The position numbers were made by a program, and so were the translations under genes. 57,513 nt of DNA, from positions 1 through 57,513 of IMG/VR virus record IMGVR_UViG_3300017763_000020. One strand, given 5' to 3'. Shown here one piece after another: positions 48,720 through 54,448 of this stretch. The notes under the pieces were generated by a model, which was not told the origin of the DNA, did no database searches, and saw nothing but the letters and a program-made list of their open reading frames with translations. The stretch is from a virus. Position 1 is the stretch's first letter, and every line of letters begins with the position of its first letter.

Positions 48720-49016
48720 TTATGACCAACCCTCTCCAAATTCAAGACAGTCTGCGAACTGTTCTACCGTTTCGATTTCTTGGGTTTGTTCTACATAAGA
48801 ACCATCTTCAGCTTCTGCCCATACGTTTTTACCGTTCCAAAAGAACGTAAACGCCGCATCATGACCGAATGGATTTTCCATTTCTGCAGTTTCAACTGAG
48901 ATTTCACCGCCATTACCATCGACGTTTTTAAATCCCATTGCTACTAGTTCTTTAGCTGCTCGTTTTGAGTTAAATCTTTCGTTAACAAACTGTTCAAATA
49001 ATCTTACGTGTTTCAT
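48720..49016 (-). CDS. Putative capsid-targeted internal protein, 98 aa
   Basis: Small acidic protein of unknown function. Its N-terminus MKHVRLFEQFVNERF is of the same type as those of the 232-aa and 196-aa proteins at 53-54 kb and resembles the T4 capsid-targeting sequence, with candidate cleavage after E13 (V-N-E). The remaining 85 residues are compact, with FTFFWNGKNVWAEAEDGSYV in the middle. An AGGA ribosome-site-like sequence precedes the start, unusual in this window. It lies directly downstream of the acidic core-like gene and is followed by a terminator. Confidence 0.6.
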   Translation of the reverse strand: MKHVRLFEQFVNERFNSKRAAKELVAMGFKNVDGNGGEISVETAEMENPFGHDAAFTFFWNGKNVWAEAEDGSYVEQTQEIETVEQFADCLEFGEGWS

Positions 49017-49631: not shown

Positions 49632-52600
49632 TTATAAAGTTTCGATATTGTTATCTTTCATCCATACCGCTAACTTTTCAGTAGTACTATTGAATATTCT
49701 GCTTCGCTTAGTATCTAAGCCATGATTATTAAAATACTCTTTTGCTAGATAGTAACTTGGCTCTATTGATTCACCGTTTACTTGCATATCTTCTATGTGT
49801 CTGATAATCTCTAAACAAATCGTAGCAGCTTGCCAAAAGAAAGCACTATATCCGGTTAAATCATTATAGAATCTATTTATAAATTCAGAACCGTTTTTAC
49901 CAAATTCTTTTTCTCTCTTCTTTGAATCAGCATTTATAGGGAAAAACTTCTTACCAAAAGAATTAATCCAAATGATCATGTTTTGAGATTCAGAATCATA
50001 CACTGGTTCCATTAATCCTTGCTTAATAATTTCTTTACGTTGTTCCTCAATCCACTTAGGATATTTAATCTTGCCATTCTCTTTAATCCATTTATTATAC
50101 GTGTAACCATCTACACCTTCATTAAGTACTTTAACATACTTAAGTTTTTTAGATTCAACGAATTTTTCAGGATCATCTTGCATTACATTCTTTTCTAAAA
50201 ATGCTGCATCAACATTAAATGATTTGTCTATTTTCTTGATCAATTTAGCCATATTACCTAAAGAAATACCAGCTTCTTTCATGGCATCCTTTATTTTAAT
50301 ACTTCCATCTACAACTCTTTTAGCATATCCCATTGGTGAGAATTTACCTTCATTCATTCCTAGTAATCTTTCTCTTTCTTGCTCTAATGCTTGAAGAGTT
50401 TCATTATCTAATGGTTCACCATTTCCACCTTCTTCGTCTTCGATCTGTTGATCAATAACTTTAATAGCTTTTTTGATAGCAGACTTAGACATGCCTTCAG
50501 TAACTACAGATTCTTCAAGAGTTGAAACAAAGTCAAATAATATTTTACCTTCTGTTCTACCTCTTAAATCAATTAAAAGTTCTTCAGAGGCTGGACCCAT
50601 GTTTTTCCAACGTTTATCTGTTTTTTGAATCCTTCCTAATTTAGGTTCTTCTTGAAAAACATAAATCATTTGTAATTTATCTTCTAATCTAATACCAACA
50701 GCATCACCTTCTCTTTTTGAAAAGTAAATGTCACCATCATTTCCTGGTTTAGAAAAATCAGTTGATGTGTGTTTATCTTTTTCATTAACTACAGATTCCT
50801 TTATACCTCGCTTTTTAATTTCTTTTTCTATATTTTTAATTAATGTACCAGATACCTCTCTTATATTAGCAGGTCCAGTTTTTAAATGGTCTAGAGTTGC
50901 TATTAAATCAGTATCTGACATATCTTTAAGATTTTTATTTTCATTAACTACAGATTCATCAACGTCAACTGTTGCAAGTTTAGTAATATCTTTATATTGA
51001 TATAAGAAACCAATAATAGGATATTTATCGCCATCAGTAACTTTATAACCTACAGCATTCTTGTTAGTCTTAGGAGGATTAGGTATGTTTACTCTTTTCA
51101 TATCGTCTCCTTTAAATATAAAGGGAGCCATAAAACTCTTTTTAGGAGCATAATCAGTTTCAATTATTTCCCATTCACCAAATCCAGTTTTGATCTTATC
51201 ACCTACTTTAAATTTATCGGTAATATACTTCTCAGCTTCATTAAGTGGTTTAATGTACTTTAGTTGGTTTGACTCTTTCATGTTGTCTATTTCTTTTGAT
51301 TTTTTCATTGCCCAATCAACACCTTCGTCTCCACCCCAGATTAACCAAGAAACATATCCTTTGTCTTTCCACGGTGTTCCTTTTAATTCTGCTTTTATTG
51401 ATGAATTTTTTCTGTGTCTATTAAACGATGCCATTCTCTTTACAGTATCAGCTGAGATCTTTTCACCTTTAGCTAATTGATTTGCTCTTGTCCACCCAAC
51501 TGCAGTACCTGCATCTACTTCATCTCTTCCATGCTCATCTCTCCAGTCAAGTGCTTTTTTTGCATTCTTTTTGGCAGCAGCGGGATAATCGTTGTAAGTA
51601 TCTTCCTCGTTTATCATTGATTCTCCTAAAGATGGTGCGTTATCTGTTCCACATTTATGACAAGTATACATGTCATCTCCGCCATCCTGCTTTAACCAAG
51701 TCCATGAGCAATTGCCACATGTTATATTGTTAGGTGATTCAGATTCTTTCGACGGCTTTGAATGTTTGAATTTACCCAATTTATCGCTTAATCCAATTTC
51801 TGATTCTACACCTTCTTTAAGTCCTTTGTCATGACCACCATCTCTAACTTCTTTAGCAACATCTTTGTCTGCTCCACCCCATGTACCGTCACCTTTAGTT
51901 AAAAATGCATTTACTCGTGCATATCCCCATTGTTGTTCACTTGCACCTGGCCTGTGACCAGTTTTCCACGCGGCCATACCTCTTCTCATTATGATTCTAA
52001 TTAAACCAATTGGTACTCCAGTTTCTTCAGCCTTAGTTTTAAGAGCAGTTTCTATTTTAGCATCGGCTATTTTACCTCTATCGCCTTCTGCCTTTTCTTC
52101 ATTAATATTAGATTCATTATACGTATCATTTGGAAAAACCCAACCTATTGCGATATCACCTATTTGTTTCTCAATGGCACGCCATTGTCTTCCCCAATAT
52201 TTCTTATTAGCAATTGCAAAAGTAGCTTCATCATGTTCAACTTTATATGCTGGATTGTTTTTATTATCTTCAAATTCAAATTCGTATCCAGCTGCTTTTA
52301 ATTCTTTTCCAATATTTTCAAAATTACCAGCCTTTTCTACTGCGTTAAACCAATCATTGAGTGCAAAAGCATAAGGCTTAGCCTTTTCAGATATTTCTAC
52401 TGATTCATCTTTTTTATCACCATATAATTCGTGATATTTTTTGACATGTTTAGAAGTTTTTACTTCACCTTTAGCTTTGGCCTCTTTGTCACCTGGTAAT
52501 TCTTTATAAGCATCTGGATCGTCATCGTCCATTTCAGCTTGCTTTTTCATTTTATCTTCTTTTTTCTCTTCATCATCGTCATCTAAACCTCTCATATATG

Positions 52601-53117
52601 GATCTGGTCCTGGTTTTGCATCTGCTTCAGCGACTGCAAATTGACTGTCGTTATAAAGAGCTTCTAGCCATTCTAAAAATTCTGGTGTTTTCTTCATTAC
52701 CTTTTTATGTCCGTACTCTTTGAAGAATTCTTTTTGAAAAGAATCAAAGTTTTTATGGTTGTTAATCATCTGGTGTATATCAGACATAACACCTTCTAAT
52801 ATTGTAATTGGTCTATTTTCCATTTCTTCTATATCTATGTCTTTGGTTGTTTTTTCTTTTTTCTTAGCAGTGTCTATTTTAGCTTTAAGTATTTCAGCCT
52901 GCTTTTGCAACATTAATTTTTCAGCTTCGCTTTCAGATTGTCTAAGTTGTATCTTTGCTAATGAAGCTTGCATTTTTCCAGAAGGTTCTTCAGAATCTGC
53001 CATTTCTTTGGCTTTACTAATAGCATCCTCTTTTTTAGAAACCAGTTTACCAATCTTTTTATTGATGTCCTTAACTTTGCTTTTTACGCTAGGCGCCTTT
53101 TCATTAATGTATTTCAT
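49632..53117 (-). CDS. Putative capsid-internal polyprotein with many prohead-protease-like sites, 1161 aa
   Basis: Segmented protein. Candidate cleavage sites of type [ILV]-x-E follow E6, E108, E244, E340, E435, E504, E627, E726, E779, E874 and E1000, plus M-N-E923. Many sit in E-S-x-[IV]-[NTS]-E, or in KY[IV]KxLNE (621-627, 994-1000), close to the leaders of the neighbouring proteins. Segments include a coiled coil (7-108), an RRGMAAWKTGHRPGASEQQW region (378-397), a zinc ribbon (C467, C470, C486, C489), and a GWTRANQLAKGEKISADTVK plus YVSWLIWGGDEGVDWAM region (541-604); the last three resemble segments of other phage head-associated proteins. No enzyme motif is obvious. It overlaps the upstream gene by four bases. 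Segmentation is seen; processing is inferred. Confidence 0.75.
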   Translation of the reverse strand: MKYINEKAPSVKSKVKDINKKIGKLVSKKEDAISKAKEMADSEEPSGKMQASLAKIQLRQSESEAEKLMLQKQAEILKAKIDTAKKKEKTTKDIDIEEMENRPITILEGVMSDIHQMINNHKNFDSFQKEFFKEYGHKKVMKKTPEFLEWLEALYNDSQFAVAEADAKPGPDPYMRGLDDDDEEKKEDKMKKQAEMDDDDPDAYKELPGDKEAKAKGEVKTSKHVKKYHELYGDKKDESVEISEKAKPYAFALNDWFNAVEKAGNFENIGKELKAAGYEFEFEDNKNNPAYKVEHDEATFAIANKKYWGRQWRAIEKQIGDIAIGWVFPNDTYNESNINEEKAEGDRGKIADAKIETALKTKAEETGVPIGLIRIIMRRGMAAWKTGHRPGASEQQWGYARVNAFLTKGDGTWGGADKDVAKEVRDGGHDKGLKEGVESEIGLSDKLGKFKHSKPSKESESPNNITCGNCSWTWLKQDGGDDMYTCHKCGTDNAPSLGESMINEEDTYNDYPAAAKKNAKKALDWRDEHGRDEVDAGTAVGWTRANQLAKGEKISADTVKRMASFNRHRKNSSIKAELKGTPWKDKGYVSWLIWGGDEGVDWAMKKSKEIDNMKESNQLKYIKPLNEAEKYITDKFKVGDKIKTGFGEWEIIETDYAPKKSFMAPFIFKGDDMKRVNIPNPPKTNKNAVGYKVTDGDKYPIIGFLYQYKDITKLATVDVDESVVNENKNLKDMSDTDLIATLDHLKTGPANIREVSGTLIKNIEKEIKKRGIKESVVNEKDKHTSTDFSKPGNDGDIYFSKREGDAVGIRLEDKLQMIYVFQEEPKLGRIQKTDKRWKNMGPASEELLIDLRGRTEGKILFDFVSTLEESVVTEGMSKSAIKKAIKVIDQQIEDEEGGNGEPLDNETLQALEQERERLLGMNEGKFSPMGYAKRVVDGSIKIKDAMKEAGISLGNMAKLIKKIDKSFNVDAAFLEKNVMQDDPEKFVESKKLKYVKVLNEGVDGYTYNKWIKENGKIKYPKWIEEQRKEIIKQGLMEPVYDSESQNMIIWINSFGKKFFPINADSKKREKEFGKNGSEFINRFYNDLTGYSAFFWQAATICLEIIRHIEDMQVNGESIEPSYYLAKEYFNNHGLDTKRSRIFNSTTEKLAVWMKDNNIETL
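50118..50156 (-). repeat. Polyprotein leader-like repeat, KYVKVLNE copy
   Basis: Encodes residues 988-1000, ES-KKLKYVKVLNE, followed by G. Matches the copy at 51237-51275 (ES-NQLKYIKPLNE) and resembles the leader of the adjacent 196-aa protein. Confidence 0.75.
50496..50513 (-). repeat. ESVVTE-coding repeat
   Basis: 18-base segment encoding residues 869-874 (ESVVTE). Differs by one base from the identical copies at 50781-50798 and 50940-50957. Confidence 0.8.
50781..50798 (-). repeat. ESVVNE-coding repeat
   Basis: 18-base segment encoding residues 774-779 (ESVVNE), identical in DNA to 50940-50957. Confidence 0.85.
50940..50957 (-). repeat. ESVVNE-coding repeat
   Basis: 18-base segment encoding residues 721-726 (ESVVNE), identical to 50781-50798. 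The sequence on either side encodes unrelated residues, so the conserved unit is the motif itself. Confidence 0.85.
51237..51275 (-). repeat. Polyprotein leader-like repeat, KYIKPLNE copy
   Basis: Encodes residues 615-627, ES-NQLKYIKPLNE, followed by A. It parallels residues 988-1000 and looks like a relic of an N-terminal leader of a once separate gene. Confidence 0.75.
51606..51623 (-). repeat. ESMINE-coding motif
   Basis: Encodes residues 499-504 (ESMINE), between the zinc-ribbon segment and the next segment of the polyprotein. Confidence 0.7.
52098..52115 (-). repeat. ESNINE-coding motif
   Basis: Encodes residues 335-340 (ESNINE), at the boundary before the GHRPGASEQQW-containing segment. 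Confidence 0.7.
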
Positions 53118-53704
53118 ATTTCAATTGCTTTTATATCATATGCTGACGGTCCCCAAAATAATACTTGTTCAACGTCGTCACCAAAGTGATAATTTTTAAT
53201 TGCATCGGTGGATTTAAATGTAATCGGATAAGATCCCCAATGTTTTGCACCCTTTTTTAAACTTCCATATTTTTCTAACATGTCATCATAATCAAGACCA
53301 TAGTTATATCCAATATCTCTTTTAGGCTTGTGTCTTGAAGACCAATTCATACCCAGTTTGAGGTAATCCGCTTCACCGTAAATAAAGCCATTTTTAACAA
53401 TATTTTGTCTAATTTTTTCTGATGATACAAAGTGTACAATTAGTTTATCTGATGGATGATCTTCAGCAGGTGCATCAAAGAAATACATGGTCGGTAGTTT
53501 ACTATAATATTTTCGACTATTAACCTTTGTGATTAGATTAACTGCGTCAGACTCGGAATCAAGTTTTTCCTGAGGCAATAGATACTTTTTAATCCATTTT
53601 GCAAGCGACATATTAGTTCTATCGAAATGCTTCTTTAGAACATCAGTCTTTTTTCCACCTGCAGCTTCATTCAAAAAACTATTGTATGTGTTTATGTATT
53701 TCAT
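53114..53704 (-). CDS. Putative capsid-targeted effector, 196 aa
   Basis: The start at 53704 is preferred over the upstream ATG at 53725: it gives MKYINTYNSFLNEA, a T4-like capsid-targeting leader with a site after E13 (L-N-E then A), and one base of spacing from the upstream stop. The body contains VHFVSSEKIRQNIVKNGFIY, a GEADYLKLGMNW segment, and a C-terminal VEQVLFWGPSAYDIKAIEI strand pair. This ordering is faintly like ADP-ribosyltransferase-fold proteins, and T4 Alt is a packaged ADP-ribosyltransferase; no catalytic triad is certain. Downstream it overlaps the polyprotein gene by four bases. Effector function is a hypothesis. Confidence 0.6.
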   Translation of the reverse strand: MKYINTYNSFLNEAAGGKKTDVLKKHFDRTNMSLAKWIKKYLLPQEKLDSESDAVNLITKVNSRKYYSKLPTMYFFDAPAEDHPSDKLIVHFVSSEKIRQNIVKNGFIYGEADYLKLGMNWSSRHKPKRDIGYNYGLDYDDMLEKYGSLKKGAKHWGSYPITFKSTDAIKNYHFGDDVEQVLFWGPSAYDIKAIEI

Positions 53705-53705
53705 A

Positions 53706-54404
53706 TTAAAATTTCGGTATACCACCTATTTTTACAGCTCGTTTTCTCCAAAGATCTAACACTTCTTCTTTTTCTTGTTTACTAATTACGTCACCTTCTA
53801 TTTGAGTGTCTAAGTATCTGTTAACTGCATCACTCATTGGCTCTTTTCTTTTTTTAGCCTCGTATCTAAGTCCCTGTAAATTAGCATCTACTTCTTTAGG
53901 TAACATTAAATAATGAAAGTATGGTAGAAGACCTAAGTTAATTAGATTTCTTATTTCGCTATCATCTTCAATAGGTTTACCAGCTCTATAATTACCAGTG
54001 TCTACACCATCCTGTGTTATGTGTTCCATTTCATGTCTAATAACATCTGCTAAATGAAAATATACAGTAGACCATTCTCCTGGAATCCAATCAGGATTTA
54101 TACCAAAATCTATTAGAATATATGGAGTTTGATAATCACCATCATCGTCTTCATCTCTACCATCTGCACCAGTTGAAGGTAAAACTTCAAAGCCTTTAAA
54201 TTTCTTATCGATATGAATGGTTGCATCAAAGTCAAATTCTAAACCTCGTTCTTCGATTTGGTCCACATAATTGATAACTGCTTTGCCACCTTTATATGTG
54301 TTTACCCATTTCCTAAACGTTAATTTAGTTAACTTTGAAGCAAGTCCATCGTATGCACTTCTACCTTCTCCTATAAAACTCTCGTAAGCTTTGATATGTT
54401 TCAT
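53706..54404 (-). CDS. Putative capsid-targeted metallopeptidase, 232 aa
   Basis: The N-terminus MKHIKAYESFIGEG is a T4-like capsid-targeting leader, with a candidate prohead-protease site after E13 (I-G-E then G). The mature part has a zinc-metallopeptidase motif HEMEH (H124, E125, H128) within ADVIRHEMEHITQDG, and a possible third ligand at E171 in LPKEVDANLQG, in a helix where gluzincin-type enzymes carry a Glu. No signal peptide or membrane segment. A protease delivered with the DNA could act on host proteins or assist internal processing. It starts just after a terminator and a GATATATAAA motif. Protease motif is seen; delivery is inferred. Confidence 0.7.
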   Translation of the reverse strand: MKHIKAYESFIGEGRSAYDGLASKLTKLTFRKWVNTYKGGKAVINYVDQIEERGLEFDFDATIHIDKKFKGFEVLPSTGADGRDEDDDGDYQTPYILIDFGINPDWIPGEWSTVYFHLADVIRHEMEHITQDGVDTGNYRAGKPIEDDSEIRNLINLGLLPYFHYLMLPKEVDANLQGLRYEAKKRKEPMSDAVNRYLDTQIEGDVISKQEKEEVLDLWRKRAVKIGGIPKF

Positions 54405-54406
54405 GG

Positions 54407-54416
54407 TTTATATATC
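54407..54416 (-). promoter_or_regulatory. GATATATAAA promoter-like motif
   Basis: Minus-strand GATATATAAA lying between the T-run of the terminator at 54419 and the start codon at 54404. Only two bases separate it from the ATG, so transcription from it would be leaderless or begin inside the gene. Confidence 0.35.
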
Positions 54417-54418
54417 AC

Positions 54419-54448
54419 AAAAAAAGGGGAAGCTATTCGCTTCCCCTT
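54419..54448 (-). terminator. Rho-independent terminator
   Basis: A perfect 10-base stem (AAGGGGAAGC / GCTTCCCCTT) with a five-base loop, followed on the minus strand by seven T. It ends the transcript of the 81-aa gene whose stop is about 30 bases upstream. The strongest terminator in the window. The stem could also work in the other direction but there is no opposing gene. Confidence 0.9.

Follow-up and report, generated by a model that had tools for sequence, protein, structure and literature searches.

A predicted zincin metallopeptidase with a T4-type capsid-targeting leader: a protease probably injected with the DNA of T4-like phages

Introduction

The internal proteins IPII and IPIII of phage T4 both open with MKTYQEFIAE↓A (T4 record), and mutagenesis of IPIII has assigned Y4 and F7 to targeting and I8 and E10 to processing (PMC9026906). 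In the literature covered here, an incomplete set, capsid-targeting sequences are described for T4 itself only and for no cyanophages or marine phages. Zincin domains are part of phage polyvalent proteins, which are thought to travel with the DNA (survey by Iyer et al. 2017, PMC5512222), and for the zincin of group 1 jumbo phages a role in maturation has been suggested (PMC7824862).

Here we analyse a gene in a 57,513-nucleotide stretch of viral DNA (IMG/VR record IMGVR_UViG_3300017763_000020), referred to as the window, the product of which carries a T4-type head-loading tag on a predicted zinc metallopeptidase and is therefore probably injected into bacteria with the phage DNA.

Results

A predicted Glu-type zincin

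The open reading frame at 53706..54404 on the minus strand starts with ATG and encodes a protein of 232 residues. Its HEMEH motif (residues 124-128; 54021..54035, minus strand) is predicted to supply two zinc ligands and the catalytic Glu, and E171, which lies within LPKEVDAN (53892..53894, minus strand), is the proposed third ligand. In an alignment of 37 sequences, the identity of which to the window protein ranges from 88% down to 34% (up to 66% divergent), H124, E125, H128 and E171 are unchanged throughout, and the 20 invariant columns also include R123, E127, K170 and A174. The AlphaFold2 (AF2) model built from this alignment (pLDDT 90.7, pTM 0.87) contains a helix at residues 17-38, strands at 43-52, 55-65 and 95-102, a helix at 111-132 that holds HEMEH and a helix at 169-186 that holds E171, whereas residues 1-15 are disordered (pLDDT <50) up to a point just ahead of the fold. 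Thus, HExxH is placed on one helix and the conserved Glu on the next, after a helix and a beta-sheet, and this order of elements agrees with the zincin core as given by Iyer et al. (PMC5512222). Judged on element order, the model is zincin-like. The original prediction had read this open reading frame as a capsid-targeting-type leader joined to a HEMEH zinc-protease motif, which is correct, and its suggestion of E171 as a third ligand is supported both by the invariance of this residue and by its location in the helix following the HExxH helix.

No Pfam peptidase family was matched by any of the 37 members at E ≤ 1, Pfam and PHROGs returned no informative family for the window enzyme, and sequence and fold searches of the PDB yielded no confident homologue or template. 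The best viral fold matches (BFVD) are uncharacterised phage proteins. Given the absence of a family match in Pfam or PDB, the predicted fold represents an undescribed zincin family. We infer that the enzyme is a Glu-type zincin metallopeptidase for which protease activity is predicted. T4 IPIII is itself structural (PMC9026906), and in line with this precedent the protein could be a catalytically dead zincin with a structural or DNA-bound role inside the head; the invariance of E125 and of all proposed ligands in very divergent members makes this scarcely credible.

A leader matching the tested residues of T4 IPIII

Residues 1-13 of the enzyme, MKHIKAYESFIGE (54366..54404, minus strand), are followed by GRS and form a capsid-targeting-type leader with a predicted prohead-protease cut after E13. 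Y7, F10, I11 and E13 correspond to Y4, F7, I8 and E10 of IPIII with identical spacing, so that all four experimentally tested residues match, and these key residues are invariant or conservatively varied in most relatives that have a leader. In G001, the closest long relative (212 kb), eight of 261 ORF starts fit a strict pattern built on the T4 residues, whereas 2000 shuffles of the N-termini gave a mean of 0.17 and never more than 3. A first leader pattern had shown the weaker enrichment of 8 against 2.2, and a looser one gave 11 against 2.4; all of these patterns were picked after the leader of the family was known and the enrichment is, therefore, not blind. Of 155 ORFs located downstream of the enzyme gene in relatives, at positions +1 to +4, 37 are leader-tagged, compared to 1.1 for shuffled N-termini. 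Separately, several genes of a 642-kb uncultured phage (LR756502.1) begin with MKYIKLFESI or MKIKTYSLFLES, and these leader-like starts suggest a comparable tag in a megaphage.

Stand-alone, leaderless and fused relatives

A profile scan of IMG/VR identified tblastn-confirmed relatives in 214 stretches, 80 of which were retained (an earlier, first scan comprised 25 loci), and further relatives are present in Flavobacterium phage immuto and in four MAG contigs. Hosts are named only for immuto (the cultured isolate 2-6A, host Flavobacterium sp. LMO8) and by a few MAG assignments. The phages that carry the enzyme form an aquatic, T4-like family, and the phage of the window is placed in the T4 superfamily, with hosts that are probably Bacteroidota.

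In most relatives the enzyme stands alone behind a leader. Distant relatives carry it as one module of a polyprotein of 500-1200 residues, directly after an [LIM]xE↓G site. Within the main fused clade, the sequence [LIM]xE↓G(R/K)YD lies exactly at the domain start although the upstream modules are unlike: some are a further HExxH domain, some a zinc ribbon and some other linkers. In the tree, 11 fused forms are grouped on one side and a second fusion, with a less exact junction, lies elsewhere; leaderless forms are basal to the stand-alone clade, and the tree as drawn implies at least two changes. One fused relative, immuto gp088 (L001:9904-12627), is annotated as NMN adenylyltransferase; it also has two HExxH domains and a nucleotidyltransferase-like N-terminal region, and a predicted cut at VMAE would free a C-terminal fragment that begins with GRYDTV. 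The second HExxH family (HEMIHH...IEKEAY) occurs in the polyproteins of relatives, as at L066:9542-10006, L080:9320-9784 and L117:9497-9961. Its 13 aligned members gave no clear Pfam family, and comparison with the window enzyme (hhalign) aligned 36 columns around HExxH with a probability of 45%; an origin of the two HExxH modules by duplication is unproven. Linker cassettes of the types KDPFGLNQFAREL and HKGKSSPFGSAYExLxE recur between modules in polyproteins L070, L080 and L117-L119.

A few relatives lack the leader and have in-frame stops upstream of the start; some of these begin where the mature enzyme would (MGRSKYD, MSRSKYD). The enzyme can, therefore, be made without the packaging tag, and as judged from these leaderless versions not every member of the family need be packaged. 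The same homologues would fit a protease that works in the cytoplasm of the producing cell, with a leader that is no packaging signal. This reading is decidedly improbable given the exact match to the tested residues of the T4 capsid-targeting sequence, the strong overrepresentation of the leader among otherwise unrelated proteins and the conservation of the cut site where the domain has moved into polyproteins.

Leader-tagged neighbours and a modular polyprotein

Beside the enzyme gene, relatives encode dozens of leader-tagged proteins with unrelated mature parts, and this cargo includes GNAT proteins and 2H phosphoesterase/Acb1-like proteins, the Acb1 matches being under the Pfam cut-off. 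Leader-tagged 2H phosphoesterases with a weak match to anti-CBASS Acb1 directly follow the metallopeptidase gene at L012:3747-4295 and L023:10693-11250 and have distant relatives in uncultured phages of 480-640 kb; leader-tagged GNAT acetyltransferases are part of the same cassette (L006:10702-11046, L023:12425-14164).

In the window, the gene at 53114..53704 (minus strand) encodes a leader-tagged protein of 196 residues (MKYINTYNSFLNE↓A) that has four close relatives in total and no PDB match; an ADP-ribosyltransferase-like identity of this product was not supported by the PDB sequence search. A leader-tagged protein of 98 residues (MKHVRLFEQFVNE↓R) is encoded at 48720..49016 (minus strand), and its homologue in G001 scored as a leader hit. 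Between these two genes, 49632..53117 (minus strand) encodes a modular polyprotein of 1161 residues with eight [ILVM]NE sites, two of which are at the starts of folded modules (residues 504 and 1000). Eight such sites compare to 1.3 expected and were reached in 0 of 5000 shuffles. The enrichment is absent from the remaining window proteins taken together, and the loose [ILVM]xE pattern is not enriched in the polyprotein (25 against 22.5). The homologue in G001 is the strongest [ILVM]NE outlier of that genome. Two modules of the window polyprotein are found in relatives as stand-alone leader-tagged proteins, the cut sites of which align with the internal sites at 504 and 1000. A separate AF2 run on the polyprotein had a mean pLDDT of 58.6, and segment confidence alone was used from it. 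The sites at 504 and 1000 coincide exactly with the ends of low-confidence segments, and seven of the eight sites lie in such segments, which make up ~48% of the chain. The polyprotein also contains internal copies of the leader, LKYIKPLNE and LKYVKVLNE.

These data bear on the main rival to an enzyme that acts on host proteins, namely that the packaged enzyme processes co-packaged phage polyproteins, either in the head or after ejection. The enzyme is fused to a polyprotein in distant relatives, the polyprotein gene adjoins the enzyme gene or lies one gene off in the window and in G001, and self-processing has been proposed for zincin domains of polyvalent proteins (PMC5512222). However, the recurrent [ILVM]xE sites have Glu at P1 and are of the gp21/S77 type, the same motif starts the major capsid protein (MCP), these sites would also release the enzyme itself, and the enzyme is kept in relatives without an adjacent polyprotein. 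We regard this alternative as rather unlikely.

A late-promoter-like box ahead of the enzyme gene

The sequence GATATATAA, a late-promoter-like box, is located at 54408..54416 (minus strand), 3 nt ahead of the ATG. The window contains eight of these boxes, every one on the gene strand, against 1.9 expected, and in G001 the distribution is 27 to 1 against ~3 expected; in G001 the box lies upstream of the portal, MCP, tail sheath and tail tube genes. An ATATATA box with the same 3-nt spacing to the ATG is present in 15 of the 28 relatives checked, mostly behind a terminator hairpin. The box is likely a late promoter. The RNR and SSB genes are also preceded by it, at larger gaps, and it may, therefore, not be strictly late. 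The box lies 3 nt before several leader-tagged genes and mostly 20-30 nt before structural genes, and the 3-nt spacing possibly corresponds to a leaderless mRNA. The exact T4 late box, TATAAATA, occurs twice per strand and not at the enzyme gene, and GATATATAA was adopted instead. A terminator-like hairpin with a T run, read from the sequence at 54419..54447 (minus strand), would close the upstream transcript, and many relatives have comparable hairpins at the same place.

A dedicated prohead protease in the relatives

A separate protease of the T4 gp21 type (S77) is encoded in 11 of 12 contigs of relatives, and MANLINE↓(S/A) or a similar sequence starts most of the relatives' MCPs. Thus, the expected cutter exists, and the enzyme is not needed for this cleavage. 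No S77 protease was found in the window, a fragment of 57.5 kb without recognised head genes, and the window enzyme does not match the S77 serine-protease sequence. S77-type (L/I)xE cut sites sit ahead of the enzyme's own domain. In L085-L094 the S77 protease is the N-terminus of a long ORF (above 630 aa) and apparently fused to a scaffold-like region; the immuto S77 protease is separate.

The original prediction had also allowed for a maturation protease acting within the prohead. A head-type leader and a late-promoter-like box are what a maturation or scaffold-clearing protease active only within the prohead would have. The dedicated S77 protease and the S77-type sites before the enzyme domain argue against such a role, as do the distance of the enzyme gene from the head cluster (in G001, 55.5 kb compared to 145-152 kb) and its neighbours, which are variable cargo and not head genes. 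We consider this role very unlikely.

Discussion

The reading of the gene product as a leader-tagged zinc peptidase with E171 as third ligand is supported by conservation, by the predicted fold, by the promoter context and by the company of leader-tagged genes. In total, we suggest that the enzyme is an internal-protein protease with a capsid-targeting sequence that is trimmed by the prohead protease, ejected, and cleaves a protein at the onset of infection, a reading to which we assign a probability of roughly 0.6. In this model, the gene would be expressed late from the promoter-like box common to head and tail genes, the 13-residue N-terminal sequence would bring the enzyme into the prohead core, and an S77 (gp21-type) cut after IGE13 would leave a folded zincin that begins at G14. 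The mature enzyme would be retained in the head and ejected with the DNA, and the zinc peptidase would then cleave a protein inside the cell just entered. Late synthesis, core entry and trimming after E13 are suggested by sequence evidence together with the T4 precedent; packaging in the head is strongly suggested by the leader, by its recurrence on unrelated cargo, by the [LIM]xE↓G site ahead of the enzyme in polyproteins and by the shared box, and delivery with the genome can reasonably be inferred. Cleavage after E13, ejection and proteolytic activity would follow in this scheme. The target is the least certain step: it may belong to the host, and the company of 2H/Acb1-like and GNAT proteins favours a part for the enzyme in host takeover or counter-defence.

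More tentatively, and as something possible rather than probable, a widespread clade of aquatic T4-like phages, probably of Bacteroidota, could load a large and exchangeable arsenal of leader-tagged enzymes, among them the metallopeptidase, GNAT and 2H/Acb1-like phosphoesterase proteins. Part of it would be made as polyproteins with internal fossil leaders, which the prohead protease would cut into separate cargo in the head, with the conserved metallopeptidase cleaving host defence or regulatory proteins at DNA entry.

If our main reading is true, the short list of enzymes that T4-like phages are known to inject gains one that cuts proteins, and with it a zincin family that neither Pfam nor PDB contains. 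The leader would also serve as a simple tag in the sequence by which a large group of uncultured phages could be searched for pre-loaded effectors and counter-defence proteins, a repertoire that is invisible to homology because the 13-residue leader is the sole common part. With the tag and the cut site defined, virion proteomics could directly test each candidate for packaging.

Several described systems share parts of this scheme. In group 1 jumbo phages a conserved, uncharacterised phage zincin likewise occurs alongside an S77 protease (PMC7824862). The polyvalent proteins, for example P1 DdrB and the N4 virion RNA polymerase, likewise contain a phage zincin-like domain, for which fusions to nucleotidyltransferase and other modules are described (PMC5512222). 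No member of the family described here has a Pfam match, and its membership among the 12 clades given there is therefore unproven; the enzyme is usually stand-alone, and a multidomain early-effector context is found in its fused relatives and not in the window protein. The prohead-protease-type sites at module boundaries point to a release route not found in the passages of that survey consulted here. The ejection proteins of phiKZ and SPN3US are likewise inner-head proteins that have a propeptide cut by the prohead protease and enter the cell (PMC5694885), as proposed here; their propeptides are mostly above 100 residues and end in AXE or SXE (PMC5694885), whereas the leader described here has 13 residues and the cut site [ILVM]xE. 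With T4 IPI, IPII, IPIII and Alt the enzyme shares the short N-terminal leader with Y/F-x-x-F-[ILVM]-x-E, the late-type gene context, the predicted S77 cleavage and diverse mature parts with the leader alone in common. Unlike in these T4 proteins, the mature part of the putatively packaged protein is a predicted zinc metallopeptidase, and copies of the leader and the cut site occur internally in polyproteins.
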